Shown here piece by piece: positions 3,148 through 30,666 of a stretch of 42,124 nt of DNA; position 1 is the stretch's first letter; every line of letters starts with the position of its first letter. The DNA is from an uncultured Bacilli bacterium. Lineage in GTDB: Bacteria; Bacillota_I; Bacilli_A; RF39; UBA660. The notes below the pieces were generated by a model. It did not search any database. It worked only from the letters and a program-made list of their open reading frames with translations, and was not told the DNA's origin. The DNA is taken from NCBI GenBank assembly GCA_947594595.1, contig CANQEE010000003.1, forward strand, positions 1 through 42,124, read 5' to 3'. The position numbers were made by a program, and so were the translations under genes.

Positions 3148-5124
3148 TTATTTACTTTTTCCTGCAGGATTGGTTACTATTTCCTGATATTTATTACAAT
3201 TTTTTAATACCGTAGTATCTTTTAAAGATTTAAAGTTAGCATCTCCTCCTATGTATTTTAAAGAATTTAAATCCTTGGCATCTTTTAATGATTCAAAGCC
3301 AGCAGAAAGTCCTATGTATTTTAGATGTTTTAAACCCTTCGCAGTCTCTAGAGAATTAAAACGAGCAATACCTCCTATATATTTTAAAGAGCTTAAATTT
3401 TGGGCATCTTTTAATGATTCAAAGCTAGCATAAGAACCTATATATTCCAAGGAATTTAAACCCTTCGCATCTTTTAAAGAACTAAAGTATGCATCTCTTC
3501 TTATATGCTTTAAGGATTTTAATCCTTCGGCAGTCTCTAGGGAATTAAAACGAGCAATACCTCCTATATATTCCAGATGATCTAAACCCTCTGTAGTAGT
3601 CAAATAATAGAAGTCAGCTGACGATCCTATATGTTCAAGATGATTTAGTCCTTCAGCATTCACTAATGAATGAAAGTTGACCTCTCCTCCTATATATTTT
3701 AGATGATTTAAACCTTCAGCAGTCTCTAAGGAATAAAATTGAGCATTACCTCCTATATACTCCAGATGATCTAAACCCTTCGCATCCTGTAATGATGGAA
3801 AATCAGCATATCCAATAATTGCTTTTAAATGTCTATATTTTTCTGGTACTATTTTACCTTTATAAATAAAATCGGATGTAAAAACTTCAATATCTCTTTC
3901 GTCAAAGTCTTTCATTGTGGTTCCTATTTGATCTTTTCTGCAACCAAATATTATACTTAAATCTTCTTTCATATCTCTCTTTGACTTAATCTCTTCTATT
4001 CTAGGATCTTTTTCAAATCCAAATCCTAATATCTCTGATTCTATTTCATATAAAAATCTTAATTCTTCTATGGTTAGTTTTTTATTATCTTTTACTTTAT
4101 GCTCTATTTCTGTTAGTTTTTTCATATCATGTACTTTTTTCTTATATTTTTCTTTATCTTCAAATTCATCTAGTTTCTTTTCTGTTATCTCTATCATATT
4201 TCCCTCTAGATTTTGATTCTTACTAACCCCTCTTACTTCCCCAATCTCTTCTTTCCCATTCATTCGAATCGCAATTCTTGGGGTGGTATATCGTCCTTCT
4301 TCATTCTTTGTATAATATACATAAAAGTCTCCATTATCCAGTTGTGTTTTTGCTGTTTCATATCCTGCTGTACACCATCCTGTATTCTTCCCTTGTAAAC
4401 TATCACATAACTTTTTAGAGTCACTTCCCTGTTCATATTTTATCCATTTTCCTTCTGTTTCTTTATCTTCTCCTTTATAATTCTGTTTCTTTAGAAAATA
4501 CAAATATAGTTTTTGAAAACTTTCTCCTATATTTAAAATTTCTTCCTGTTCTTTACTTATTTCATTTTCTCCAATTTCCCCTTTTAATACATCATATATT
4601 TGTGCTAGTATTTCCCTATTTAATTCTAGATATTTCTCCACTGTTTCACTTGTTCTTTTTGTAAATTTCATTTTTTCTTTATCAAATTTTCCTAGTTTTA
4701 ACATTCCTCTAAATACATAATGTTTAAACCACATTGGATACATTGCATCATCACTGCTTAAATAGGTTATCCATTCCTTCAGTGATTCTTTCTGATCTTT
4801 TTGAATTATTTTTAACATATCTTCTTTCATTTGATCATTGATTTCTACATTCCCATATCCTTGTTTTTTATATATTTCCTTTTGTAGTTTAATATAAGAT
4901 TCTGGCAATTCTTTGATTACATATTTATCATAATATACTTGTAATAATCTTTCTAATCGATGAGCATTATCTTTTGACTCTTCATGTATCTTTTCTAGTC
5001 TATTTAAGTATTTCCTTATTTTTTCTTCGGGACTATCACTTTTTAATGCTTTACTCTCTACAATATCTTCTTTATGCATATCACTATATAATTTATTTAA
5101 AAACTCTTCTCCTGTCTTATACAT
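3148..5124 (-). CDS. Unknown protein with a GWCTA domain and ten 21-residue repeats
   Basis: I do not recognise a named family. The 658-residue protein has no signal peptide or membrane segment and is probably cytosolic. Residues 1-230 are charged and helical. Residues 238-310 form a compact domain with GWCTAGY (Cys251), GDFYVYY, PRIAIRM and IGEVRGVSKNQNLEG, loosely like the G-x-C layout of PcfJ-type plasmid or phage proteins. From about 432 to 641 there are ten repeats of 21 residues, with consensus GLxxLxYIGGxAxFxSLxxAx; the spacing suggests a leucine-rich-repeat-like or beta-solenoid surface. The ATG has a good AGGAGGG ribosome site. A frameshifted piece of a second copy lies upstream at 5155-5300, so this is an expanding or decaying family. 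Function unknown. Confidence 0.8.
   Translation of the reverse strand: MYKTGEEFLNKLYSDMHKEDIVESKALKSDSPEEKIRKYLNRLEKIHEESKDNAHRLERLLQVYYDKYVIKELPESYIKLQKEIYKKQGYGNVEINDQMKEDMLKIIQKDQKESLKEWITYLSSDDAMYPMWFKHYVFRGMLKLGKFDKEKMKFTKRTSETVEKYLELNREILAQIYDVLKGEIGENEISKEQEEILNIGESFQKLYLYFLKKQNYKGEDKETEGKWIKYEQGSDSKKLCDSLQGKNTGWCTAGYETAKTQLDNGDFYVYYTKNEEGRYTTPRIAIRMNGKEEIGEVRGVSKNQNLEGNMIEITEKKLDEFEDKEKYKKKVHDMKKLTEIEHKVKDNKKLTIEELRFLYEIESEILGFGFEKDPRIEEIKSKRDMKEDLSIIFGCRKDQIGTTMKDFDERDIEVFTSDFIYKGKIVPEKYRHLKAIIGYADFPSLQDAKGLDHLEYIGGNAQFYSLETAEGLNHLKYIGGEVNFHSLVNAEGLNHLEHIGSSADFYYLTTTEGLDHLEYIGGIARFNSLETAEGLKSLKHIRRDAYFSSLKDAKGLNSLEYIGSYASFESLKDAQNLSSLKYIGGIARFNSLETAKGLKHLKYIGLSAGFESLKDAKDLNSLKYIGGDANFKSLKDTTVLKNCNKYQEIVTNPAGKSK
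3202..3831 (-). repeat. Coding tandem repeat, about ten 63-bp units
   Basis: Units of 63 bp encode 21-residue repeats of the gene at 3148-5124. Adjacent units differ by scattered substitutions, and some non-adjacent units are nearly identical (for example the blocks around 3360 and 3550), suggesting unit shuffling by recombination. This is protein-coding repetition, not a CRISPR or a minisatellite in non-coding DNA. Confidence 0.85.
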
Positions 5125-5627: not shown

Positions 5628-6209
5628 CTAATTTTCCTTATATTCAATTTTTCGTCTACAAAACTTACAAGTTCCTGTTTTTTCTGTAAGCATATTATCA
5701 GAACCACAATATGGACAATAAATGATATGAGTATTTTTAGCTTTTTCTCTTTTTTCTTTCATAATTAAATCGTTTTTCTGAGATATTTTACTTTCCCTTT
5801 GATCATTCTTAAAAATATAATTTCTAATTTCGCTATTAAACTTTCCACTAATTTTAGTAAACACCCTTTTAAATACAACTGATAATATAAGAAATATTAT
5901 ACTTACTGATATAAGCAATTTACTATAACTTATAAATTTTTCATTGTATAAATTAGAATTAACTATATCGCTTAAATATGGAATATTAAAATTTTTTATA
6001 TTGATTAAATTTAATACTTCATTTATAAGTATAAGACTAATTATTACAACTCCTATACTTAATAAACATATTGATGTTGAAACTTTTTTGTTATTATATA
6101 TCAATAATCTTAAAAGTATTAAGCATACTCCAAGGAAAGGAATAAAGTACAAAAATACTAAGATACTAGGAATACTTGCTAAAAGTTTTATAAAAAAATT
6201 TTCTTTCAT
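5628..6209 (-). CDS. Membrane protein with C-terminal zinc ribbon
   Basis: Last gene of the eight-gene operon. The 193-residue protein has about four hydrophobic segments in residues 1-120. A charged cytosolic tail ends in a zinc ribbon with Cys165-x2-Cys168 and Cys181-x2-Cys184 (YCPYCGSDNM ... CKFCRRK). The start has an AGGAGAA ribosome site 7 bases upstream and lies 14 bases after the stop of the vWA gene, so it is co-transcribed with it. No enzymatic motif is visible. The ribbon resembles those of four other operon products and probably acts as a protein-binding or regulatory module rather than in DNA binding (inference). Confidence 0.8.
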   Translation of the reverse strand: MKENFFIKLLASIPSILVFLYFIPFLGVCLILLRLLIYNNKKVSTSICLLSIGVVIISLILINEVLNLINIKNFNIPYLSDIVNSNLYNEKFISYSKLLISVSIIFLILSVVFKRVFTKISGKFNSEIRNYIFKNDQRESKISQKNDLIMKEKREKAKNTHIIYCPYCGSDNMLTEKTGTCKFCRRKIEYKEN

Positions 6210-6223
6210 TTTCTATTCTCCTA

Positions 6224-9061
6224 TTATTGATTGAAATACGCCAAATCGTATTCTAATGATGGTGTTATTCTGATAGGTTGGTTTGAGTCTGTATAATATG
6301 AATTTGCCTTTGTAACACATTTATCTTTTTTACATTCAACATCTACATATCTTTTTTCACCAGGATAATTATTATCATATACACCTATATAATAATAATT
6401 TGGATTTTCAATATCCTGTACTAAACTAATTGCGTTAATAGCATGTAATCCACCACTATAACTAGATGAGATTACTAAAGGATCGTGATCAGCTAATCTT
6501 GTCTTTATTATATTTATAAAACCTGATGCACCCGTATATCCTGTTGTTTCTGTACCTATAACATTTTTTAACCATAAAATAAAATTGGTTGATGATGAAT
6601 AGAAAGTTGTGGAGTTTTGCTTTATAAAACTGGCATATATAGCATTAAACATTTGCTTATCATCATTGATAAAAGAACTACTTTTTTGCATCTTATCTTC
6701 ATTTAACAATAAACTCTCTGCTGTTTTATAATTTACTCCCCATTTTTCGATTTGTGCTTCCTTAGATAATCCAGATTCTTCTTCTTTTATATCGTAAATT
6801 CCAGAGTTTTCTATTTCTTCCTTATACTTATCATTGATAATTAACACATCGTCTTTTAATCCTCTAAAATCTGCTGGAACTTCTTCGCCAAATATATCAT
6901 AACCAAAAGTATATTTTAAAGTGTTTGTCTTTAATTTGTAATCATATAAGTTGCTATAATTTTTAAAATATGTATTAGATAAATCATATTCATAAGATCT
7001 ACTATTATCAGATGTAAGAGAGCCAACCTTTAATGGCAATACTTTTTTATAATATAATTCGGCAAAAGTAGCCATTCCAAAACAATGTCCTCTAGCAGAT
7101 AAGTTTGTTCCATAGTTTGCAAATGAGAATCCATCACGATTTACTACGAAGCCACTATCAGCTACCAATATACCATCAGACTCACCATCATTATCAAGAT
7201 CTACTAAATCATCATCCAATTCAGCTCCAATATTTTCAAACAATTCAGTTAAGCCATTAACATTACTTGAAGAAAAGAACTTACATCCTGTACCATTTGA
7301 AATATTGGATAACTCAGTATTATATGAACCTCCACCAAAACCTATTGAACATATTTTTACATCACTAGAGTTTGCTTTTTCAATGATTTTTTCTGTTTTA
7401 CTATTTAATGATGAATCTTGTCCATCCGTTAATATAACGATAAACTTATTATCACTATCTTTAGAAAATTCTCCAATACCACTTGTTAATGCATTTCCAA
7501 TATTAGTACCTTCTGATTTGGTTATAAATTTACCCTTCATTCCACTTAAGGTAGATTTAATTGAGGCTGCATCTGTTCCTATTATAGAGGCATTTGCATA
7601 GTCACTTCTAAATTCTGATAATCCCATTTGATAATTTTTTTGAGATAATCTTGATACTAAATCACTTGTTAATGTAAATCTTACTCCTTTTTCATCAAAT
7701 CCATCTAACTTAGATCCTCCAAATAATCCTCCAGAATATTCTTTTCCAGTTATTTTTTTATATTGAGCATTACTATACATACTCCAAGAATTATCAAGAA
7801 TAAACAATATTTGAGTGACTTCTTCTTCTTTTACTAATGACTCATCACCTACTACATAATTAGAAAAATGTTTTAATTTTGCTGTTAAAGTGTTATTGTC
7901 TTTATCAATAGTTGTTTCAATCTTCTCATATTTTGATTTCTTTTCATTATAATAAAAGATAGATAAATTGTCTTCATTTAGCCCGTATTTTGATAAATCT
8001 TCATCTGTATAGAAAATTGTAATTACTGCTTCATCAATACTTCCATCCGTATAGAATGTGTATAAATTATCAATCATACCTTTTTTATTGCTAATTTTAG
8101 TATTTGAACTTATCTCAGCTATTGTACTTGCAATATTTCCTTTACCAAAAACAGAAAGTTTTAAGCCATCTGTCTCATAATCATAAGTTAGCTTTCTTTC
8201 CCCATCCTTTTTTCCATCACCTTTGGAATCTGATTTTAATGGATCTAAACCTAATTCTATTTCATCATAATCATTTAATCCATCACCATCTGTGTCCTTT
8301 TTATTTGGATCAGTTTTACTTGTGTTAATTTCATAATCATCATCCAAACCATCCATATCACTATCAGATAATAATGGATTCGTTTTGTATTCTTTTTCTT
8401 GTTTATTTGTTAAATTATCTAAATCTAGGTCTTCATCAGAATCTAAATCTATTTCATAGTCTAAAGTAAGTTCTTTGTCTTGCATATCAAATGGTATAAT
8501 CTGATATTCTTTACTTATTTTCTTTAACTTATAGGCAGCTGTTATTTTACATTTTCCAGTTGCTTCTGTTAAATCCCATTTTACTTCTAAACCATTGCCT
8601 TCAACTTTACCACAAGTAGAAGAATATTTTATTTTATCAATTTTCGTATCATCAGAAAAATTTACACCTAATTTTATATTGGATTGTGTTATATAAGTTA
8701 ATTTAGAATCAGAATAATTATCATTCCAACTTAACTTTTCAAACCCAATAAAACGACTATATAAAAATGACCCAATAGCAATTACTAAAACACAACAAGA
8801 TCCAACTGCAATCTGTTTTTTATGATTTTTCATGAAGGTTTTCGTTTTATCAATTTTGGGCTTTATAAAATCTGAACTATTTTTTGAAAATTTTTCTGTC
8901 ATGGTGACATTCGTATTTGAAGTTGTTTGTTGGATTGGTTGAATGTCATCTTGTTTTTGTCCTTCCTGATTAGGAACTGATAATTCTTTAATACTTTTTC
9001 CACAATTTGGACAAAATTTCTCATTCCCATTCAGTTTATTTCCACAATTTTGGCAAAACAT
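6224..9061 (-). CDS. Zinc ribbon-TM-TSP3-vWA protein with a putative cysteine-peptidase-like C-terminus
   Basis: 945 residues from the ATG at 9061, which has an AAAGGAG site 6 bases upstream; an ORF start farther upstream lacks one. In order: cytosolic zinc ribbon (Cys3, 6, 17, 20); a Gln-rich linker; one membrane segment (about 83-104); a beta-rich extracellular region; acidic calcium-binding thrombospondin type 3 repeats (about 232-283, DSDMDGLDDD, DTDGDGLNDYD). Then a von Willebrand A domain (417-615) with a complete MIDAS: DNSWS at 423-427, Thr519, Asp546. Residues 645-900 hold GHCFGMA (Cys660), GGLHAI (His873) and YDNNY (Asp896/Asn897), an order and spacing like papain-fold peptidases; this last assignment is inference. 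It sits behind an internal hairpin (9078-9108). It is likely a surface adhesin, sensor or protease tethered to the envelope. Confidence 0.85.
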   Translation of the reverse strand: MFCQNCGNKLNGNEKFCPNCGKSIKELSVPNQEGQKQDDIQPIQQTTSNTNVTMTEKFSKNSSDFIKPKIDKTKTFMKNHKKQIAVGSCCVLVIAIGSFLYSRFIGFEKLSWNDNYSDSKLTYITQSNIKLGVNFSDDTKIDKIKYSSTCGKVEGNGLEVKWDLTEATGKCKITAAYKLKKISKEYQIIPFDMQDKELTLDYEIDLDSDEDLDLDNLTNKQEKEYKTNPLLSDSDMDGLDDDYEINTSKTDPNKKDTDGDGLNDYDEIELGLDPLKSDSKGDGKKDGERKLTYDYETDGLKLSVFGKGNIASTIAEISSNTKISNKKGMIDNLYTFYTDGSIDEAVITIFYTDEDLSKYGLNEDNLSIFYYNEKKSKYEKIETTIDKDNNTLTAKLKHFSNYVVGDESLVKEEEVTQILFILDNSWSMYSNAQYKKITGKEYSGGLFGGSKLDGFDEKGVRFTLTSDLVSRLSQKNYQMGLSEFRSDYANASIIGTDAASIKSTLSGMKGKFITKSEGTNIGNALTSGIGEFSKDSDNKFIVILTDGQDSSLNSKTEKIIEKANSSDVKICSIGFGGGSYNTELSNISNGTGCKFFSSSNVNGLTELFENIGAELDDDLVDLDNDGESDGILVADSGFVVNRDGFSFANYGTNLSARGHCFGMATFAELYYKKVLPLKVGSLTSDNSRSYEYDLSNTYFKNYSNLYDYKLKTNTLKYTFGYDIFGEEVPADFRGLKDDVLIINDKYKEEIENSGIYDIKEEESGLSKEAQIEKWGVNYKTAESLLLNEDKMQKSSSFINDDKQMFNAIYASFIKQNSTTFYSSSTNFILWLKNVIGTETTGYTGASGFINIIKTRLADHDPLVISSSYSGGLHAINAISLVQDIENPNYYYIGVYDNNYPGEKRYVDVECKKDKCVTKANSYYTDSNQPIRITPSLEYDLAYFNQ

Positions 9062-9077
9062 AAATACACTCCTTTCC

Positions 9078-9108
9078 AAAAAAGGATAACTAAAGCAAAT
9101 AGTTATCC
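9078..9108 (-). terminator. Internal operon terminator or attenuator before the vWA gene
   Basis: On the minus strand GGATAACTA (9108-9100) pairs perfectly with TAGTTATCC (9092-9084) around a 7-nt loop, followed by six T. It lies between the lipoprotein stop (9126) and the vWA start (9061), with the vWA ribosome site only a few bases downstream. There is no room for a promoter in between, so the two distal genes depend on read-through or on a promoter inside the lipoprotein gene. Confidence 0.75.
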
Positions 9109-9125
9109 TCACTTAATATTTCGTT

Positions 9126-9803
9126 TTACTTTGCTTCAGCTGGAATTGTTATTGAACCAGAATTATTATAATTACTATAGTTAATTTCAACTACTTCGGA
9201 AATTCCCATTATTTCCATTTCAAAATTCATTTTTTCTATATAATTGGAAGAATTAACAAGAATACTTATATTGATATCATTGCTTACAATTTTACTTGTA
9301 TCAATACTAGAATCTGCTTGAGCCATTGCTGCGGCAAGTTTCTCGCTTGATATTGTACCAGTATATAATGTATTACTTCCTTGCATTTCTTCTTTAATAT
9401 CAAAAATATAATTATTCAAATTTAACCATGAATTCGTATTTGAATTTTTCACAGAAGTAGAGGTCCATTTACCATTGGAAGCATCACTACTATATGGAGA
9501 GTATACCTTTGTATACGCTTTACCATTGCCATAATCATAATATTCTTCTGTATTAACTCCATAAGTAGATGTTGAACAGTACCCTATTTTATTCTTACGA
9601 TCTTCTTTACAACTCATTGTTGTTGCCACATCCACAATTCCTGTTTTTGTAGTAATTTTTGCAGTATAACTAAAGTTATCTAAATGATTTGTCATTACGT
9701 CCTTTATCTTAGCTAACTGACTATCCTTATTTACTTCTTCTTTTGTAAAACTACATCCAGAAATTCCAATCAAAACTACCATTAAAATAAATAAACGTTT
9801 CAT
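9126..9803 (-). CDS. Predicted lipoprotein, LolA/LppX-like
   Basis: The start at 9803 (MKRLFILMVV) gives a 225-residue protein with a signal peptide and the lipobox ISGC, so it should be anchored to the outer face of the membrane. The upstream gene's stop is one base before this ATG and no separate ribosome site is seen, which indicates translational coupling; a longer in-frame extension overlapping that gene is unlikely. The mature part is beta-rich with alternating polar and hydrophobic residues, contains two Cys about 14 apart (CKEDR..., GYCSTS) that could form a disulfide, and has the look of LolA/LppX-type lipid-carrier or DUF6612-like lipoproteins. That fold call is inference from pattern only. 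Confidence 0.8.
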   Translation of the reverse strand: MKRLFILMVVLIGISGCSFTKEEVNKDSQLAKIKDVMTNHLDNFSYTAKITTKTGIVDVATTMSCKEDRKNKIGYCSTSTYGVNTEEYYDYGNGKAYTKVYSPYSSDASNGKWTSTSVKNSNTNSWLNLNNYIFDIKEEMQGSNTLYTGTISSEKLAAAMAQADSSIDTSKIVSNDINISILVNSSNYIEKMNFEMEIMGISEVVEINYSNYNNSGSITIPAEAK

Positions 9804-9804
9804 A

Positions 9805-10422
9805 TTAAAACTTATGCCCACACATGAAACATTGCGTTGCTGTTTCATCTACTTGATTCCCACAGTTTGGACAGAATTTTGTATTTATTGCACTATTTTG
9901 AACTGGTTGTTGCATTTGTGGTTGTGTTGGTTGTTGGTAGTTTTGTTGTGGATTAACATTTTTGTTATTATATCCTTGATTCACATTCGCTTGTGTCTCA
10001 GTTGGTTTCTTATATAGAATTGCATGAGCAACTAAACATATAACACCTAACCATAATAAATAGAAACCAAGTCCATTTTTTAAGTATTCACTATTAAAAT
10101 CAGATTTTGTATTTAAGTAAATAACAAATCCCACTACTAATATTGTAGGTATAATAGATAATTTAGGACTAGCATTTTCAATTTTTCTACCTAAATTAGA
10201 ATTAAATACTCGAGGAATATCTTTTTGCAAAAAATCCCTAAATATAAACATTGTATTTAAAATTATTAACACAACAATTATCTTGCCTTCCCAGTATTTC
10301 CATAATGATATAGAATACGAGTATCCTAAAAATGAAACTTGAAAATATGGTGTTATTGTACCTACAAACAAACATGCAATTCCAATGATTGCCAATATTC
10401 TTTTATTTTTCAAAACATCCAT
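9805..10422 (-). CDS. Membrane protein with C-terminal zinc ribbon
   Basis: 205 residues. Four hydrophobic segments fill roughly residues 8-140. A Gln/Asn/Pro-rich cytosolic linker (about 145-178) follows, then a zinc ribbon with Cys184-x2-Cys187 and Cys198-x2-Cys201 ending in GHKF. The ATG is preceded by AAGGAAAGG overlapping the end of the WG-repeat gene. The mirror-image layout of its neighbour at 12125-12979, which has ribbon and linker first and membrane region after, suggests the two may sit in one complex. No catalytic residues are seen. Function unknown. Confidence 0.8.
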   Translation of the reverse strand: MDVLKNKRILAIIGIACLFVGTITPYFQVSFLGYSYSISLWKYWEGKIIVVLIILNTMFIFRDFLQKDIPRVFNSNLGRKIENASPKLSIIPTILVVGFVIYLNTKSDFNSEYLKNGLGFYLLWLGVICLVAHAILYKKPTETQANVNQGYNNKNVNPQQNYQQPTQPQMQQPVQNSAINTKFCPNCGNQVDETATQCFMCGHKF

Positions 10423-10427
10423 TTTTC

Positions 10428-12125
10428 TTACCTTTCCTTATTTGATTCATAAAATAATTTTCCATTATAGGCATAATATTGTTCATTATTATCTTTGGTA
10501 ATTAAGATGTAATGATCATAAAAGTTTGGTGAGCTTTCTAACTTTAATATTTCTGCTTTTTTACTTATATCATAAAGAATATATTTTGAATCAGTCGTTG
10601 ATAATTTTGCATAATATTTATTTTGTTTTTCAGTAATATCAATATCAGAATATTTGCAATCTAATACTTGTTTTCCATTCTTATCTAAAATTCCCTTTAA
10701 ATTATTTTTAGTAACTATATAATAGTTATTGTATAAAGAAAGATTATCAAAATCATCACTAATCTTTTTACCTGTGGTGTCAATTAGATAATACTTTTCT
10801 TTATCATCACTAACTTTAGCAAATCCATTTTTGTCAAAATTATCAGCTCTAGCAAATGATTTGCCAAAAGCATTTTCGCCTTTTGAATTATAAAACTCAT
10901 AAGTACCAGAAGATGTCCCACAAGATGAACTATAATAGGTTCCTAAAATATACAAGCCCTTTTCAACATAACCTGTTCCTTTTATATTTCTACACGAAAT
11001 ATTTTTAACAACTTTACCATCAATATAAAAATCAACCCCATTAAATGAACCTTCTTTGTTTTGAGCATAATGGTTATTATCTAGATAGAGTTTTTTTGAA
11101 ATATTTATTCCAACATTTAGGTTATTATCTAAAAGATATGCCTTATTATCTTTACTACATACTAGATTACTATTTTCATAATAAACTTGATCACATTTAT
11201 CATTTAAATCATATAATTTACCATCTTTTATAAATTTATAATAGGTGTTATCTTGACTTTGAAACCACCCAACACAAGAATTTAGAGTAATTATTTTTCC
11301 ATCGTCTTCAACATGATTGACACAGTAATGTTTATCATCAGTAAAAGATATTACTTCTTTTCCTGTTTTTTCATTGAATATAAAATTTTTGTTATTATAA
11401 AATACCGATATGTATCCATCTTCTTCATTTGTTTCCGGATCATCCTCAATATTTTCTAAAATAGGAAAACTTGTCATTACCTTACCCTGATAGTTTAATA
11501 CTTTATATGTTTTCGTAGATTTTTCTTCCAAGATTGAATAATATTCACCAATAAAAGTGTTTAGATCATTCTCTTCTAAATCATATAAAACTTTCCCTGT
11601 CCCATCAATAAGGAAGTCGTGATAATCTTCCCCTTGAGCTTTATACATACCTGCTTCGGTTGAAATATAAGAATACTTGCCAAAATCTACTGTCATTTTC
11701 CCATTAGAATCAATTATTCCATAAGCATCATCTTTTTCTACTAAAGATGTTCCATTTACAAAATTACTTGCTGAATTAAATATAAATTCTGTAAGTTGCT
11801 TTCCTTCATCATTAAATAAGGCATATTTACTATCTTCATTTTTAATAAAAAATGCAGTAGAATAAGTGATATCTTTTTCTAAATTTTTATTTTTATCTTT
11901 ATTAAAATAAAAGAAAGCAATTATACCAAAAATTATTATTATAACAATTACGATCCATATTACTTTTTTATTATTTTTTGTTTGATTACTTGAAGTATCA
12001 ATATAATTATTATTTATAGGTTGCTGTATAGGTTGATTTTGAGGTTGTGCATATGTGGGTTGACTTATTTGTTCGTTACTGGTGTTAATTTGTTGTGAAA
12101 GGTTATTATTAAATTCATTATTCAT
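10428..12125 (-). CDS. Membrane-anchored WG-repeat protein
   Basis: 565 residues. An Asn/Gln/Pro-rich cytosolic N-terminus (1-50) is followed by one membrane segment (about 55-75). A long extracytoplasmic region then carries repeated motifs of the WG (KWG) type: YGIIDSNGKMTVDF, LIDGTGKVLYDL, YKVLNYQGKVM, YLIDTTGKKI and LKGILDKNGKQVLDCKYSDI. WG repeats are thought to form beta-propeller-like folds used in binding. It overlaps the stop of the preceding gene by one base. It lacks a zinc ribbon of its own but shares the Gln/Pro-rich tail seen in other operon members. Likely a ligand-binding or sensing surface protein. Confidence 0.85.
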   Translation of the reverse strand: MNNEFNNNLSQQINTSNEQISQPTYAQPQNQPIQQPINNNYIDTSSNQTKNNKKVIWIVIVIIIIFGIIAFFYFNKDKNKNLEKDITYSTAFFIKNEDSKYALFNDEGKQLTEFIFNSASNFVNGTSLVEKDDAYGIIDSNGKMTVDFGKYSYISTEAGMYKAQGEDYHDFLIDGTGKVLYDLEENDLNTFIGEYYSILEEKSTKTYKVLNYQGKVMTSFPILENIEDDPETNEEDGYISVFYNNKNFIFNEKTGKEVISFTDDKHYCVNHVEDDGKIITLNSCVGWFQSQDNTYYKFIKDGKLYDLNDKCDQVYYENSNLVCSKDNKAYLLDNNLNVGINISKKLYLDNNHYAQNKEGSFNGVDFYIDGKVVKNISCRNIKGTGYVEKGLYILGTYYSSSCGTSSGTYEFYNSKGENAFGKSFARADNFDKNGFAKVSDDKEKYYLIDTTGKKISDDFDNLSLYNNYYIVTKNNLKGILDKNGKQVLDCKYSDIDITEKQNKYYAKLSTTDSKYILYDISKKAEILKLESSPNFYDHYILITKDNNEQYYAYNGKLFYESNKER

Positions 12126-12979
12126 TATTTAAACATATCCATTATGTTGTCTAGTCCACCTGCTACTGAACTCATAAACAATTTCATATATGCATAATAT
12201 CCTGCAACTGCTAATATACCAAAACATATTAAGTTAAAGTATATTTTTGCATCTTTCTCTAATTTCAATTCACTATTCATCAATTCATACAATATTATTA
12301 AAGTATAAACTGCACCAACAACCATAAATACTATACTTAAAGGACTCCATATCATACCACCTAATGGAGATAAAATCATTATTCCAAAAACAGCAGGTAT
12401 GACTGATGTTGCTGCAATAGATAACGATTTTATAAAACTTAATTGTTTTTTTGCAACTAAACCGCCTAAATAAAATACTAATGTTATAGCAAAAATTATA
12501 CAAACATAAATCAAAAAGTTCTTACCTATTAGTTCTAACCATTTGATATTTTGTAAATTATCCCATTGCCATGAGGATGTATGACCCTCTGTCCAACTAT
12601 AACTTGATACTCTCACAGTTGTTAAAATTGTTTTAACCATATTGATGATTGTCATCACTACACTAACAACCAAAGCCAATATAACTGATGTTTTAGGATT
12701 ATTTAACTTTGTTTCTTCTTCTTGAAAACATTTAAATGGCTTTAAAAGAATAGCAATTATATACATGAAATAATTTAATGATGCCGTACTAACAGGATTG
12801 TTAGGTTGTTGGGTAGTTTGATTTTGAGAACCCACAAAAGTAGATTGAGCAACTTGCTCATTCATAGGAGCATTGTTAACAACATGATTCATGGATTGTA
12901 ATTCTTGTAAATTCGTTCCACATTTTATGCAAAATGTTGATCCATTCATATTTTCTGCTCCACATTTTGGACAATTCAT
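12125..12979 (-). CDS. Zinc-ribbon polytopic membrane protein, Yip1-like topology
   Basis: 284 residues. The N-terminal zinc ribbon (Cys3, 6, 17, 20) has the same spacing as that of the vWA protein. A Gln/Asn/Pro-rich linker (about 28-60) and five to six membrane segments follow, with a layout reminiscent of Yip1/DUF1282 proteins (inference). The ATG overlaps the TGA of the preceding gene (ATGA), and its ribosome site GGAGGA lies inside that gene, showing translational coupling. No catalytic motif is visible. Confidence 0.8.
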   Translation of the reverse strand: MNCPKCGAENMNGSTFCIKCGTNLQELQSMNHVVNNAPMNEQVAQSTFVGSQNQTTQQPNNPVSTASLNYFMYIIAILLKPFKCFQEEETKLNNPKTSVILALVVSVVMTIINMVKTILTTVRVSSYSWTEGHTSSWQWDNLQNIKWLELIGKNFLIYVCIIFAITLVFYLGGLVAKKQLSFIKSLSIAATSVIPAVFGIMILSPLGGMIWSPLSIVFMVVGAVYTLIILYELMNSELKLEKDAKIYFNLICFGILAVAGYYAYMKLFMSSVAGGLDNIMDMFK

Positions 12980-14523
12980 TGTTTTCCTCCTTTATCTATA
13001 TTATCTTTAATAAAACTTGCAATAGGATTACTATTTGCAACTGAATTAACAACACTATTGGTAATGTTTTGCCCTGTTAATGAATCAAAAACTTTACTCG
13101 TGCTTGTTTGTCCATCAACTCTTTTATTGTTTGCACCATTCATAGTAGAATTCGTAAGACCTTGTTCTGATTTAATAAAGTTATCTACTTTTCTTAAATT
13201 GGTCATATTTTTTTTCGTTTCTGTTTCATAAGTATGTCTGGCATTAGAATTACGATACCTTATAAACATGAGAATAAAATAAACAACTCCAGAGAATAAA
13301 AATAAGAAACTATAATCAAAATCTACAAAGAACATAGCAATGATACCTAGAATTTCAACTAAAAATGATATTCCTATTAACTTGGGCATGTGTATTGGTA
13401 CACTACCCATTGTTTCCTTCGTTCTTGCATTAACTGCAACGTAATGTAATATTTTTCTATTTCCATTGACTTGTTGATAACTATATAACCAAACAGGCAA
13501 ATATGCTGCCTTCCATTGTTGTCCTTTTACACTGAATTGTTCATTAGACCATGCAACACCACGATCATATTCCTTTAACGTTTCATTTGCAGCAAATCTT
13601 GCAATATCTTTTGATTCTGTATCTACAATTGATCTTAATTGGTCAACATTCGTATCCCTTTTTTCAGAGGTATAACCTTTTAAATAGTTCGCATTATATT
13701 TAACACTATTTTCAACATCAAAAGGCATAATAGCATTGATTACATTATTTGTTTCATCTGAAGCAGTATTATTCAGTTTATCAAGACTCGATTCAACTGA
13801 AAGTCCACTGATTGCTAAGTCAAATTCTCTTTCAACATGATATAAATCAGCATCATAATAGGCTTGTTGATTATTACCACTACCTCGAAAGTATTTTTTT
13901 GTTTGATGTTCACCCTCTCCAATAAAATTAGCATGAGCATTAACATCTACGATCATATAAGGAAAATATACACCCATTATATTTTCAGTAGTAAATTCTT
14001 CTCTAAATTTTGGATGTGCAAAAAATTTTCTCTTTCCTACAAATTTTTCAATTTCTAATTTAGCAGTATCTTTATTGATGTTGAAAGGCAATACAACATC
14101 TGGAATACTACCATTAGGAATTTGTTGATTCACAGATAATGTGTTTCTACACCAATGGCATCTAGCTTGCGAAGCAGAAGCAGTATCTATCACAACTTCC
14201 GCGCCACAACTACTACATTTAAAAGTTAGAACTTCATTGGTATCCGCAACAATATCGGTCGCTCCTGAACCCATAACTTGCCCTTGTAATTGAGATATAT
14301 CTTCTACCATACCTGAAACTTTTTCAGGTTCAAACTCATGACGGCAAAAATTACATCTTAATTTACCATTATTTGTATTTGTTGAAATATCTGTCGAACC
14401 ACATCGTGGACATTTTTCTTGTCCATCTTTTGCGTCGACGTCCGTCTTTACAATAGTAGGCTCATGATTTTGAATATTATTATTTATAGGAGGAGTTATA
14501 TTTGAATTAGAACCGTCTTGCAT
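12976..14523 (-). CDS. YdjG-like protein: two zinc ribbons and two membrane segments
   Basis: 515 residues. Two TFIIB-like zinc ribbons (Cys38/41/57/60 and Cys103/106/122/125) are followed by a soluble region of about 230 residues, then two membrane segments near 377-421 and a polar tail. The order and the adjacency to an SPFH/SHOCT gene match Bacillus subtilis YdjG-YdjI of the pspA-ydjGHI envelope-stress operon. In databases such ribbons are often mislabelled as PriA-like or TFIIB-like; DNA binding is not implied. It starts 3 bases after the stop of the SPFH gene without a strong ribosome site, so it is probably translationally coupled. It is longer than YdjG (about 340 residues, from memory). 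Probable membrane partner of the SPFH protein. Confidence 0.8.
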   Translation of the reverse strand: MQDGSNSNITPPINNNIQNHEPTIVKTDVDAKDGQEKCPRCGSTDISTNTNNGKLRCNFCRHEFEPEKVSGMVEDISQLQGQVMGSGATDIVADTNEVLTFKCSSCGAEVVIDTASASQARCHWCRNTLSVNQQIPNGSIPDVVLPFNINKDTAKLEIEKFVGKRKFFAHPKFREEFTTENIMGVYFPYMIVDVNAHANFIGEGEHQTKKYFRGSGNNQQAYYDADLYHVEREFDLAISGLSVESSLDKLNNTASDETNNVINAIMPFDVENSVKYNANYLKGYTSEKRDTNVDQLRSIVDTESKDIARFAANETLKEYDRGVAWSNEQFSVKGQQWKAAYLPVWLYSYQQVNGNRKILHYVAVNARTKETMGSVPIHMPKLIGISFLVEILGIIAMFFVDFDYSFLFLFSGVVYFILMFIRYRNSNARHTYETETKKNMTNLRKVDNFIKSEQGLTNSTMNGANNKRVDGQTSTSKVFDSLTGQNITNSVVNSVANSNPIASFIKDNIDKGGKQ

Positions 14524-14526
14524 TTT

Positions 14527-15732
14527 TTATAATCCCAATAATTGTGCCTTTAATTTATCATAATCTTCTTGCGTAATTAACCCTGCATCTAATAATTTTT
14601 TCTTTTCACTTAAAACTGTCATTGGATCTTGTTGTGCTGTTTCTTGAGCTTGCTGTACAGGTTGGGCTTGACCAAATGCAGGTTGATAGGAAGATTGAGT
14701 TGGTTGTTGTTGCATTGCACCCATCATATTCCCTGCTGCATTCATGCCCATTCCCATAAAGGCCATACCTGCACCACCTCCGTTTTCACCAGCGGCTTGC
14801 ATTCCTCTAGCAACAGCCTGTTGCATAAATGCATTGCCTCTTGCACCAGATAGTGCATCTGCTGCTTTTACATCCTTCATTAGTTTCTTTGTATCTTCAT
14901 CATATTCAATAGCAAGAATTGCTGTTTTAACGATTTCAAGTCCTCTATCACTTTTCCATTGATAGGCATCTTCAACTGCTTGTGCCATAGCTTGTGCAAA
15001 ACCTATTTGATCCCCTTGAATCTTTGAAATACGGTTTCCTTTGCTTGGATCATTTGTATAATTTGAAAATGCTGCTGACAAAGTACCAACTACTTCATTA
15101 AATAATTGACTTCCAGCATCATTATCCATATCAGCAAAGTCAAATACAGGAGCTCCTGGTTGTAAATATTTAGCAGGAACAAAATTCTTCACGAATAATA
15201 ATGGATCAACTATTTTTAAAGTATATGTACCTCTAGTTACCGCTCCAACTTGTGTTCCAAAAAAGGCATCATCCCAATATATTTCTGATTGCGTACCAAA
15301 TTTATTATTTGGTATTTCTTTTAAATTAACATAAAATGCTAATTGTTGACTGCCAGGTTGTCCACCAAATTTAACCTTTTCCCATGTAGATTTAAGAGTT
15401 TGACCAAAAATACCATCTCCTGCAAACATAGATTGTGAATTTGGGTCATCTGATCTAAATTCAAAACCTCCTGGCTCTGCTATACAACCTGTAATAGCAC
15501 CATCTTGAATAGTAATAAGGGCAGTACCTTCTGGTACAACTATTTTACTACCATTCGTAATAATATTTTCATTTCCCTTATAATTTTCACCACGACCATT
15601 GTTTTGTGATTGTGGTACAGCTTGAAATAATCCTGCAGTACCAGGAACGTTTGCTCTAGGCATATAAAAATCTTTCCATTGATCTGCAAATGTGCCACCC
15701 AGGGCACCTGAAAATGCTTTAATAAAACCCAT
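14527..15732 (-). CDS. SPFH-domain protein with C-terminal SHOCT motif (YdjI-like)
   Basis: 401 residues from the ATG at 15732. A GTG two codons upstream is rejected because it sits 3 bases from the GGAGGT site, while the ATG is 8-9 bases away. The protein opens MGFIKAFSGALGGTFADQWK, the start seen in the YdjI/'virion core protein-like' SPFH family. It has a band-7-like beta/alpha domain, then an Ala/Gly/Met-rich helix, a Gln/Pro-rich linker and a terminal SHOCT motif (LLDAGLITQEDYDKLKAQLL). Relatives form membrane-associated scaffolds. It is the first gene of the operon, which suggests high expression relative to the later genes. In Bacillus the homologue accompanies PspA; no pspA is in this window. 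Confidence 0.85.
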   Translation of the reverse strand: MGFIKAFSGALGGTFADQWKDFYMPRANVPGTAGLFQAVPQSQNNGRGENYKGNENIITNGSKIVVPEGTALITIQDGAITGCIAEPGGFEFRSDDPNSQSMFAGDGIFGQTLKSTWEKVKFGGQPGSQQLAFYVNLKEIPNNKFGTQSEIYWDDAFFGTQVGAVTRGTYTLKIVDPLLFVKNFVPAKYLQPGAPVFDFADMDNDAGSQLFNEVVGTLSAAFSNYTNDPSKGNRISKIQGDQIGFAQAMAQAVEDAYQWKSDRGLEIVKTAILAIEYDEDTKKLMKDVKAADALSGARGNAFMQQAVARGMQAAGENGGGAGMAFMGMGMNAAGNMMGAMQQQPTQSSYQPAFGQAQPVQQAQETAQQDPMTVLSEKKKLLDAGLITQEDYDKLKAQLLGL

Positions 15733-16067
15733 ATTCACTTACCTCCAATTTCTTATTTCATCATTTTCAAGATGAATAGTGAGATTACAAACAAATTACC
15801 AATAAATTAGTTATATTCGCTATTATTAACTGATATCGACTTTTATAAATCACCACCTAACTTTCTAAAATTTTAACTTGCTCTTTCTTGGTATTTATTT
15901 TTTTAGACCAACCGACTAAAACCAATAACTGAATCTAACTATATATTTTTTAGTGGCATTTCTTACACTTTTAAACAAATACGAATGTGATTTATAACAA
16001 TACAGAAAACCTAAAGAATATAAGAAATTTATATCAAATACCTCCTTTGACTCACCTATTCTACACA

Positions 16068-16073
16068 ATTATA
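16068..16073 (-). promoter_or_regulatory. Candidate extended -10 promoter of the zinc-ribbon operon
   Basis: The minus strand reads TGTTATAAT, a perfect -10 with the TG extension; the -35 region (GTGCAA) is poor and is covered by one copy of the 12-bp repeat. A weak -35 overlapped by a repeat fits a regulated promoter. No sigma-W type -35/-10 pair was found. Confidence 0.45.
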
Positions 16074-16091
16074 ACAAAATTCGACGAAAAT

Positions 16092-16156
16092 TGCACTATT
16101 TTTGGATGTTTTCATAACTTTACTGACTAATAATGAGTAAAAAATGCACTATTTTT
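16092..16156. repeat. 12-bp direct repeat, candidate operator of the XRE regulator
   Basis: TGCACTATTTTT occurs at 16092-16103 and again at 16145-16156, start to start 53 bases (about five helical turns). One copy covers the -35 region of the operon promoter; the other lies about 20 bases upstream of the -35 of the regulator promoter. The position suits autoregulation and coordinate control. Confidence 0.5.
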
Positions 16157-16174
16157 ATAGGATAATGAGAATAG

Positions 16175-16201
16175 TTGCATATAACTAACCTTTAATATAA
16201 T
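16175..16201 (+). promoter_or_regulatory. Candidate promoter of the XRE regulator gene
   Basis: TATAAT at 16196-16201 with TTGCAT at 16175-16180, spacing 15 (short). The transcript would start around 16208, immediately before the AGGAGGTGA ribosome site at 16212-16220. Confidence 0.45.
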
Positions 16202-16225
16202 ACTGATTTTTAGGAGGTGAAAGAG

Positions 16226-16657
16226 TTGAAATTCAAAAAAGATGATGAAAATTATATTTATCAACTAATTGGGAAAAATATTAAAAAATATAGAAAACTG
16301 AAAGGTTGGACTCAAGAGCGTTTAGCTGAAGAAATCAATTATTCTCTCTCATTTATCAGTGGTATCGAATCTACAGCATATCATCAGACTTTTTCTCTAG
16401 GTGCATTGTGGCGAATCTCTAGAGTATTAGGAGTTGATTTTTGCAAATTATGTGAAGATACCGATAATATTAAGAAGGTAAAATTTATAACATATAAATG
16501 TGAGTCTTGTGGGATAGAAACAAAAATGCCTATACAAGTAGTAAGGCATTTTAAAAATATTTACGAATTAACAAACAATAAAAACATTCCAACTTTTGAT
16601 TGTACAAATTGTGATGGGCAATTAAAACCTATCAATCCAATGGATTTAATCGAGTAG
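16226..16657 (+). CDS. XRE-family regulator with C-terminal zinc-ribbon-like module
   Basis: 143 residues from a TTG at 16226, 8 bases after AGGAGG; the in-frame GTG at 16217 is inside that ribosome site and is rejected. Residues about 13-72 form a Cro/C1-type helix-turn-helix (GKNIKKYRKLKGWTQERLAEE, SLSFISGIE). The C-terminal part has Cys92-x2-Cys95 and Cys126-x2-Cys129, a split zinc-ribbon arrangement unusual in small XRE proteins; it may bind metal, sense redox or contact operon products (inference). It is divergent from the operon and the only plus-strand gene for many kilobases. It probably represses or activates the operon through the 12-bp repeats. Confidence 0.85.
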   Translation: MKFKKDDENYIYQLIGKNIKKYRKLKGWTQERLAEEINYSLSFISGIESTAYHQTFSLGALWRISRVLGVDFCKLCEDTDNIKKVKFITYKCESCGIETKMPIQVVRHFKNIYELTNNKNIPTFDCTNCDGQLKPINPMDLIE

Positions 16658-16847: not shown

Positions 16848-18101
16848 TTATGTCAATGATTGAAGAATTGCTAATACATCTGCATTGGTTATATTTTTAT
16901 CCTGATTATAATCAGCAGCTTTTTTTGCAACTTCATCTAAATTCTTTAAGCCAGCTAATGCTTGTTGAATCATTGTAGCATCTTTAGAAGTAACTTTTCC
17001 ATCCCCATTCACATCTCCTAACAAATAGTATTTCTCACTTGGATCTAACTTAGGAATTACATGAATGACATATTTTGAAATCAATTCAGCATCCAAAGCA
17101 TCTACTACTTGATCTGCATTGACATCTGCTTTTTGAAATTGAGAAGAAGAAAGAGAAAAGGTACCTTTTGTATATTGTAACACGAGAAAAGAATCATCTG
17201 TTGTCACTTTTCCATCTTCATTCACATCCCCATAGATAAATTCTTTCACTACCTCTTGCATCGCTTCCTCTTGTTGAGAAGAAGATAAATTAGAATCATC
17301 TTCTTTCTCTGGAATTTTCTTGGAAGAACACATCTCTAATATTATGCGAACATCCTCTTCTGTAATTTTTAAATCTCCATCGATATCTGCAGCAAGTTTT
17401 TGAATCATACGTAAAGAAATAAGATTTACTAAATACTGTTGAATCATTGTAGCATCCTTAGAGGTAATTTCCCCATCTTCGTCTACATCTCCTAAAGTAT
17501 AATACTTTTCCTCTGGATTAAGAATTGGAAATTCCCGAATCTTATTTGTGCAAAATAATAGAATCAGTTCTGCATCTAATTCATTGATTTCATTATCTCC
17601 TGAAACATTTGCAAGAACTTGTTGATATTCTGTTAAAGAGGTCTGGTTAACTATATATTTTTGAATGATCGTACTATCCTTTGTGTTAACTATTCCATTT
17701 TGATCAACATCTCCAGGTTCAAAACCAAATTTTCCCTCTTCTATAGGAAATCTTTGAATTCTTTTCCCTACTTTTTTTAAAATAAGTTGTACATCAATTT
17801 GATTGAGTTTCTTGTCTCCATCCACATCAGCAATCTTTATCTGTTTTGTACTCAACTCTTTTTTTCCAGCGATTTTTTGTAAGATCAATACTGCATCTTT
17901 TGTAGTAACAGTTCCATCCATATCTACATCCCCATAAGCATAGCCTCCTGCTTCAAATAATAAGGAAGGAATTCCTGCTTTCTCTAATATTTTTCCCTCT
18001 GTAACTATGAATGTACAAACCAAAAGCAAGACAATCACAAGAGAAACAATTCCTATTTTCTTCAAAAGTGAATTTCTTTCTTTTTTTTCGTGTCCTTTCA
18101 C
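16848..18101 (-). CDS. Membrane-anchored polydockerin surface protein
   Basis: 417 residues from a GTG at 18101 with AAAGGTGGT upstream. A basic N-terminus and one membrane segment (about 15-35) are followed only by dockerin type I-like calcium-binding units. There are ten F-hand loops arranged as five pairs (GDVDMDGTVTTKDAVLILQK, ADVDGDKKLNQIDVQLILKK and so on), each pair with alternating first/second repeat character and linkers such as FPIEEGKFGFEPGDV. No enzyme or carbohydrate-binding module is present. Dockerins normally plug single enzymes into cohesin scaffolds; a chain of five on one membrane anchor could display cohesin-bearing partners, but no cohesin is seen here. It sits between a terminator and a nuclease gene. 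Confidence 0.88.
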   Translation of the reverse strand: MKGHEKKERNSLLKKIGIVSLVIVLLLVCTFIVTEGKILEKAGIPSLLFEAGGYAYGDVDMDGTVTTKDAVLILQKIAGKKELSTKQIKIADVDGDKKLNQIDVQLILKKVGKRIQRFPIEEGKFGFEPGDVDQNGIVNTKDSTIIQKYIVNQTSLTEYQQVLANVSGDNEINELDAELILLFCTNKIREFPILNPEEKYYTLGDVDEDGEITSKDATMIQQYLVNLISLRMIQKLAADIDGDLKITEEDVRIILEMCSSKKIPEKEDDSNLSSSQQEEAMQEVVKEFIYGDVNEDGKVTTDDSFLVLQYTKGTFSLSSSQFQKADVNADQVVDALDAELISKYVIHVIPKLDPSEKYYLLGDVNGDGKVTSKDATMIQQALAGLKNLDEVAKKAADYNQDKNITNADVLAILQSLT

Positions 18102-30578: not shown

Positions 30579-30599
30579 TTTAACCTCTCCTTCCGCCAT

Positions 30600-30666
30600 G
30601 ATCTTTAAAAGATCATAGTAATTCGATTTGCTTTATTACTATAACAAATTTTTTCTTATTTGACAA
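30600..30666 (-). promoter_or_regulatory. rpmE promoter with two abutting inverted repeats
   Basis: Minus strand TTGTCA (30666-30661), 17-base spacer, TATAGT (30643-30638) with an upstream TG. An inverted repeat ATAGTAAT...ATTACTAT (30642-30635 and 30622-30615) overlaps the -10 and spans the likely start site. A second, GATCTTT-A-AAAGATC (30600-30614), follows without a gap and lies in the leader. The first looks like a DNA operator, the second like an operator or a leader hairpin; L31 genes are often autoregulated through their leaders. Confidence 0.6.

Follow-up and report, generated by a model that had tools for sequence, protein, structure and literature searches.

We analysed a 42,124-nucleotide stretch of DNA from an uncultured Bacilli bacterium (contig CANQEE010000003.1; hereafter the window) that carries eight adjacent minus-strand genes, here called A to H, from position 15738 to position 5628, with a conserved promoter at one end and a terminator-like hairpin at the other. 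The first two genes, encoding an SPFH protein (A) and a YdjG-like membrane protein (B), are a conserved adjacent pair in related genomes; the other genes are optional, re-assorting members. We give an even chance to the reading that the eight genes form a single regulated operon encoding a PspA-free SPFH-YdjG membrane platform, in which exchangeable surface enzymes would be gathered by means of their cytosolic zinc-ribbon tails. The open-access literature yielded no published description of this gene composition.

Zinc ribbons and surface domains of the products

The earlier note on this DNA, made without database searches, had described eight tightly packed minus-strand genes, and the packing was confirmed. 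With the likely Met starts adopted for A (ATG 15732), F (9800) and G (9061), intergenic distances range from -4 to +14 nt, with the exception of F-G (64 nt). The long F/E overlap in the raw list of open reading frames (ORFs) vanishes because F is started at 9800.

The first gene, A (14527..15738), was also placed correctly by the earlier note as an SPFH/SHOCT gene: its product has a Band_7_1 domain above cut-off (32.0 bits; cut-off 24) and a C-terminal SHOCT domain slightly below it (25.4 versus 27 bits), with no transmembrane (TM) segment found and no zinc ribbon. B (12976..14523) has two N-terminal zinc ribbons, seen as two CxxC-CxxC pairs (CxxC at residues 38, 57, 103 and 122) with a weak TFIIB-type match, and hydrophobic segments near residues 382 and 403. 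The model of B was poor [predicted local distance difference test (pLDDT) score of 53] and unfit for structure search, and a sequence search against solved structures gave weak matches only, mostly zinc-ribbon. C (12125..12979) begins with a zinc ribbon followed by a Yip1-type multi-TM domain, E (9805..10422) has four hydrophobic segments and then a C-terminal zinc ribbon, and H (5628..6209) has about three hydrophobic segments and a C-terminal ribbon of one CxxC-CxxC pair (residues 165 and 181) that is sub-threshold in Pfam. D (10428..12125) consists of a short N-terminal tail, one TM segment and an ectodomain of WG repeats; its relatives at two loci (L105 and L130) have an N-terminal zinc ribbon. 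F (9126..9800) is a predicted lipoprotein (lipobox ..LIGISGC), and the proposal that it is LolA-like was not confirmed, the only similarity being a weak, sub-threshold match to SCO4651-type lipoproteins.

Zinc ribbons had been claimed for five products, two of them in B. All were recovered, those of G, C and E above the Pfam cut-off and those of B and H as CxxC pairs. The whole 1.04-Mb genome contains four Zn_Ribbon_1 matches above cut-off, three of which fall inside the operon (P ~1e-6 for ~1000 genes), so this clustering is not due to chance. Lysine and arginine counts agree with cytosolic ribbons at the N termini of G and C and at the C terminus of E; the cytosolic placement of the H ribbon from the same counts is less certain.

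G (6224..9061) comprises an N-terminal zinc ribbon, a TM segment, TSP3 repeats, a vWA domain with a metal-ion-dependent adhesion site (MIDAS) and a predicted C-terminal papain-fold peptidase. Domain search bore out the VWA (E 1.2e-13) and TSP3 assignments, as it did the WG repeats of D. The MIDAS residues D423, S425, S427, T519 and D546 (counted from Met18 of the ORF) are invariant in 10 sequences.

The C-terminal end, which the earlier note had called peptidase-like, was borne out as a papain-type fold in the model of the last 333 residues (6227..7225; mean pLDDT 90.6). VIA-align ranks 1-5 for this model are SpeB or interpain (Z 12.1-11.4, ~187 residues, 3.6-3.9 Å), the best being SpeB (Z 12.1, 187 residues, 3.6 Å), and the next ranks are phytochelatin synthase, IdeS/Mac and staphopains (Z 8-9). 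Cys677 and His890 (962-residue ORF numbering; Cys48 and His261 in the model) are invariant in 37 homologues, Asp284 (model numbering) is kept in at least 90 % of the 37 sequences, and the Cys precedes the His, as in papain-fold peptidases. Counting against the assignment, Foldseek alone found nothing below E 0.001 for the model (best E 0.02, IdeS); its top rows include papain-fold enzymes. A sequence search of the domain against solved structures gave no matches, and Pfam gave no peptidase match. The modelled fold, combined with the invariant Cys/His pair and the invariant MIDAS, makes G very likely a surface-exposed vWA-cysteine peptidase. It resembles the clan CA enzymes SpeB/interpain, IdeS and the staphopains in predicted fold and Cys-His order but shares only 12 % identity with them and is membrane-anchored behind a zinc ribbon, TSP3 repeats and a vWA domain.

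A conserved pair with re-assorting neighbours

The operon was compared with 193 genomes of the same family as the window genome. In this and the wider comparisons below, genes of relatives are longest ORFs, most genomes are metagenome-assembled genomes (MAGs), organism labels are those of the records, and contig ends hide neighbours. B of the window type occurs in 26 of the 193 genomes and A of the window type in 23. In 23 of the 26 genomes with window-type B (one of these 23 cut by a contig end), the gene immediately upstream of B is A, typically at a spacing of 1-4 nt. At class level, window-type B extends to two further families, where A-B stands alone in the loci read.

Full-length G is present in nine of the 193 genomes. 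Window-type A-B is present in six of these nine genomes (in five it belongs to the same cluster, in one the contig is split), and the remaining three have only a more distant SPFH/YdjG type elsewhere in the genome, so that all nine encode an SPFH plus YdjG-like pair somewhere. The association of G with window-type A-B is significant (Fisher P 0.0002, with genomes counted as independent despite their relatedness). Among 84,980 species genomes scanned, 44 G loci turned up, almost all of them in records titled MAG or uncultured bacterium. They come from gut Bacilli, in many cases of rabbit gut or rumen origin, and from roughly a dozen records that carry the label Saccharibacteria.

Fifteen of the Bacilli MAG loci carry G and A-B in the same stretch. 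One genome from another genus (G099, locus L035) has all eight genes in the order A-B-C-D-E-F-G-H. Other arrangements are A-B-C-E-F-G plus a divergent regulator gene R (G079), A-B-E-D-H-G (G093), C-D-G-H followed by A-B (G105) and, in the same genus as the window, A-B-C-D-G with a D only 24 % identical (G002). Pairs without G are accompanied by other subsets, C-D-E (G188) or H (G173 and G076). The co-occurrence that the earlier note had proposed to look for in other genomes is thus present, and the outcome that the note had named as refuting, genes scattered with no co-occurrence, did not arise.

Two further genes were noticed at related loci. One (L035:4352-5065, also at L099, L106 and L121) is a further optional member with a TM segment, a sub-threshold Tim44-like domain and a C-terminal CxxC pair. 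The other (L039:15901-17028, also at L109) lies directly 3' of G and combines a zinc ribbon, a TM segment and EF-Tu domains 2 and 3, predicted to form the outer part. We considered and rejected a mobile-element origin: no relatives of B or G were found in viral contigs, and among the plasmid matches listed for G all are confined to its TSP3-vWA part.

Some related A-B operons have a protease of another type in the place of G, attached to the same zinc-ribbon/TM stub. The operon of G172 (locus L085) encodes E and a protein with a zinc ribbon, a TM segment, an FTP propeptide and an M4 thermolysin domain; its ribbon is below the Pfam cut-off and shares 62 % identity with the G ribbon across 24 residues. 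Two genomes (G108 and G185) have A-B with C-D plus an HExxH protein. This type of protein, in the L074 and L076 operons, has a zinc ribbon, a TM segment, an HExxH stretch (VANHELFHHFQY...TEATAN) and an F-like C-terminal domain. The HExxH stretch (HELFH...TEATAN) was read directly from the sequence, the zinc ribbon alone passing the Pfam cut-off, and the resemblance of F to the C-terminal domain of the L074 protein (E 6e-5) comes from a single pairwise comparison.

G is also swapped within otherwise near-identical operons. Between the L121 operon and that of the window, identity is 97 % for A, 92 % for B, 82 % for C, 80 % for D, 87 % for H and 94 % for R, against only 38 % for G. At L094, G and F are 91-92 % identical to those of the window, and A, B and C are 66-68 % identical. 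The tree of G has two deep separate clades, with L121 and L094 on opposite sides. The recurring theme of these operons is surface proteolysis, and the surface-processing role suggested in the earlier note gains support from the G peptidase and from the thermolysin-like and HExxH proteins.

The proposed platform and its alternatives

In the proposed platform, the soluble SPFH protein A would oligomerise at the inner face of the membrane and be held there by B, comparable to YdjI on YdjG/H in B. subtilis. The SHOCT tail of A and the zinc ribbons of B would draw C, E, G and H together in a patch by their cytosolic ribbon tails, concentrating the vWA-peptidase G, the WG-repeat protein D and the lipoprotein F outside the membrane, where the vWA domain of G may bind a substrate or partner and its cysteine peptidase may cut the bound protein. 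SHOCT domains are most often joined to Band_7_1 and did not behave like oligomerisation domains, which left open another binding partner (PMC3581485).

That the zinc ribbons dock on the SPFH scaffold is inferred, with indirect support from a covariation between SPFH tails and G ribbons. SPFH proteins of the window type have SHOCT and no CxxC at their C terminus, those of the distant YdjI-like type have zinc ribbons there, and those of the Saccharibacteria type have neither. Among genomes with both proteins, taken as independent despite their relatedness, a SHOCT- or zinc-tailed SPFH protein is paired with a ribboned G in 24 of 25, and a tail-less one in two of nine. Ribbon-less G was observed at rumen Saccharibacteria loci (L114-L119, L123, L126 and L136).

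Several observations weigh against the platform. The covariation is mainly one contrast, between Bacilli and rumen Saccharibacteria, which leaves it with few independent samples, and it has exceptions (SHOCT without a ribbon at L131; a ribbon with no tail seen at L109 and L132). About nine A-B pairs in the family, some of them located at the end of a contig, lack a recognised client gene next to them, and some Bacilli have G with no linked A-B. SPFH genes are common in Saccharibacteria relatives generally (40 of 81 genomes), so an SPFH gene beside G there is uninformative, and we dropped SPFH-G co-occurrence in Saccharibacteria as support. Two features of those genomes are recorded here: in L117 and L119 the genes preceding G include a TM-anchored serpin, with a Mur ligase in addition in L117, and in L167-L172, at a site apart from G, two or three YdjG-like paralogues in tandem come after an SPFH gene.

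The locus might instead be a loose island of surface-protein genes under one promoter, in which the zinc ribbon is a generic cytosolic cap with no physical link to SPFH, an alternative we judge unlikely, if the best of those considered. Other proteins of the family also bear zinc-ribbon/TM stubs, C, D, G and H are found without linked A-B as well, and G and F move as cassettes, all as expected of such an island. It does not account well for the concentration of the genome's Zn_Ribbon_1 sites in this one operon (three of four), for the presence of an SPFH plus YdjG-like pair in every family genome with G, or for the variation of SPFH tail type with the G ribbon.

The earlier note drew an analogy with PspA-associated genes of Bacillus and read the operon as envelope surveillance. 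B. subtilis YdjI requires YdjG and YdjH for membrane placement and recruits PspA (PMC8581546), and YdjG combines two zinc ribbons with an NTF2-like domain and a TM segment (PMC11237479). We likened A-B to YdjI/YdjG by domain layout and published descriptions. The analogy holds for the pair: like pspA-ydjGHI, it sets a TM-less SPFH protein beside a membrane protein with two N-terminal zinc ribbons. It fails for PspA itself, which is absent from all 193 family genomes (B. subtilis served as a working control) and from 14 further genomes carrying A or G (control genomes positive). TPM/YdjH is also missing from the window genome (G000) and from 20 of 24 A-B genomes, being present in four. The window-type SPFH protein, moreover, ends in SHOCT rather than in a zinc ribbon as YdjI does, and surface clients and a divergent regulator are added. 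The A-B pair is therefore Psp-like (phage-shock-protein-like) in composition but not a Psp system; the absence of PspA and TPM/YdjH rules out Psp membership of the operon and leaves the envelope-surveillance reading unsupported.

A looser version, in which the SPFH and YdjG-like proteins form a Psp-like envelope-stress module that senses membrane damage and the remaining genes serve auxiliary repair or surveillance, would agree with the match of A-B domain make-up to YdjI/YdjG of pspA-ydjGHI (PMC8581546, PMC9239133, PMC11237479) and with the many A-B pairs that lack surface clients. The same absences of PspA and TPM/YdjH argue against it, as does the nature of the clients, which are proteases and surface repeats and not membrane-repair proteins; we regard it as improbable. 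A weapon or adhesion system in which the vWA domain of G binds the surface of neighbouring cells, the peptidase attacks and an arms race drives the swapping of G fits the vWA-protease ectodomain, the replacement of G by other protease types, its exchange inside near-identical operons and its sharing by Bacilli and Saccharibacteria, but no immunity-like partner or toxin-delivery genes were recognised and the catalytic domain is conserved, not polymorphic, which makes this very improbable.

The proposed platform has parallels among known systems. SPFH proteins partner with proteases in HflKC-FtsH, prohibitin-m-AAA and stomatin-NfeD, and in these, as in the operon, an SPFH oligomer is genetically coupled to a membrane-tethered protease. 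The operon proteases differ in being predicted to be extracytoplasmic, in belonging to unrelated catalytic types and in being joined to cytosolic zinc ribbons. TcaA has an N-terminal cytosolic zinc ribbon, one TM segment and an ectodomain; proteins of this type follow the same plan, and the operon differs in having several of them together with an SPFH-YdjG pair.

Regulator, flanking features and significance

The divergent gene R (16217..16657, plus strand) encodes an HTH_3 protein with two C-terminal CxxC pairs (CxxC...CxxC), and relatives of R occupy the same divergent position next to A in other operons. R faces two near-identical repeats on the minus strand, operator candidate 1 (AAAAATAGTGCATTTTT, 16140..16156) and, exactly 53 bp from it, operator candidate 2 (AAAAATAGTGCAATTTT, 16087..16103). 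The inner copy abuts, on the 5' side, the extended -10 box of the operon promoter (TGTTATAAT, 16068..16076, minus strand). An extended -10 sequence, TGnTATA(A/C)T, is found just 3' of candidate 2 in all seven aligned R-A intergenic regions, and seven of the eight R loci have the second repeat copy at a distance of exactly 53 bp. The spaced pair was found in none of 14 A-B loci without R and in none of 2000 mononucleotide shuffles of the window intergenic region, the region from which the consensus was derived. This R-linked pair of predicted sites at the promoter suggests that R probably controls the operon, in line with the divergent zinc-ribbon regulator proposed in the earlier note. Carrying a zinc ribbon of its own, R may set the output through the two promoter-side sites, perhaps by sensing zinc or redox. 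In another genome (G201; L185, G201:C1), a second R paralogue, located apart from A-B, is accompanied by the same repeats at 53-bp spacing, there next to a 435-residue TM gene.

After the last gene, H, lies an 11-bp terminator-like hairpin (5436-5412, minus strand). Further 3' of the operon, a 658-residue gene (3148-5124) contains degenerate repeats of the GLDHLEYIGG type and has no Pfam or NCBIfam match. Elsewhere in the window are a secreted-looking protein of dockerin-like GDVDxDGxVTxxDA repeats (16848-18101) and, on the minus strand, an L31 ribosomal protein leader (30587-30618; Rfam RF03156).

The likely role of the operon is the processing of a surface or environmental protein in gut and rumen, and not a classical Psp stress response. 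What is known of the role of YdjG/YdjI-type SPFH proteins comes largely by way of PspA. The genomes described here offer a large natural set in which an SPFH-YdjG pair occurs without PspA and beside surface proteases, which allows the function of the pair itself to be studied separately from the Psp response. Client docking would also give a concrete, testable role to two orphan modules, the SHOCT tail and the zinc-ribbon/TM stub.

A broader and more tentative possibility, which we hold less likely than not, is that SPFH rings and a YdjG-like anchor form a general socket that displays exchangeable surface proteases by way of cytosolic zinc-ribbon plugs. Plug and socket would co-evolve, SHOCT- or zinc-tailed SPFH proteins going with ribboned clients and tail-less ones with ribbon-less clients, and gut Bacilli would have passed the protease clients among themselves and have them in common with rumen Saccharibacteria. 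Saccharibacteria have small genomes and are elsewhere known as episymbionts; a surface protease family common to them and to gut Bacilli merits attention in itself.

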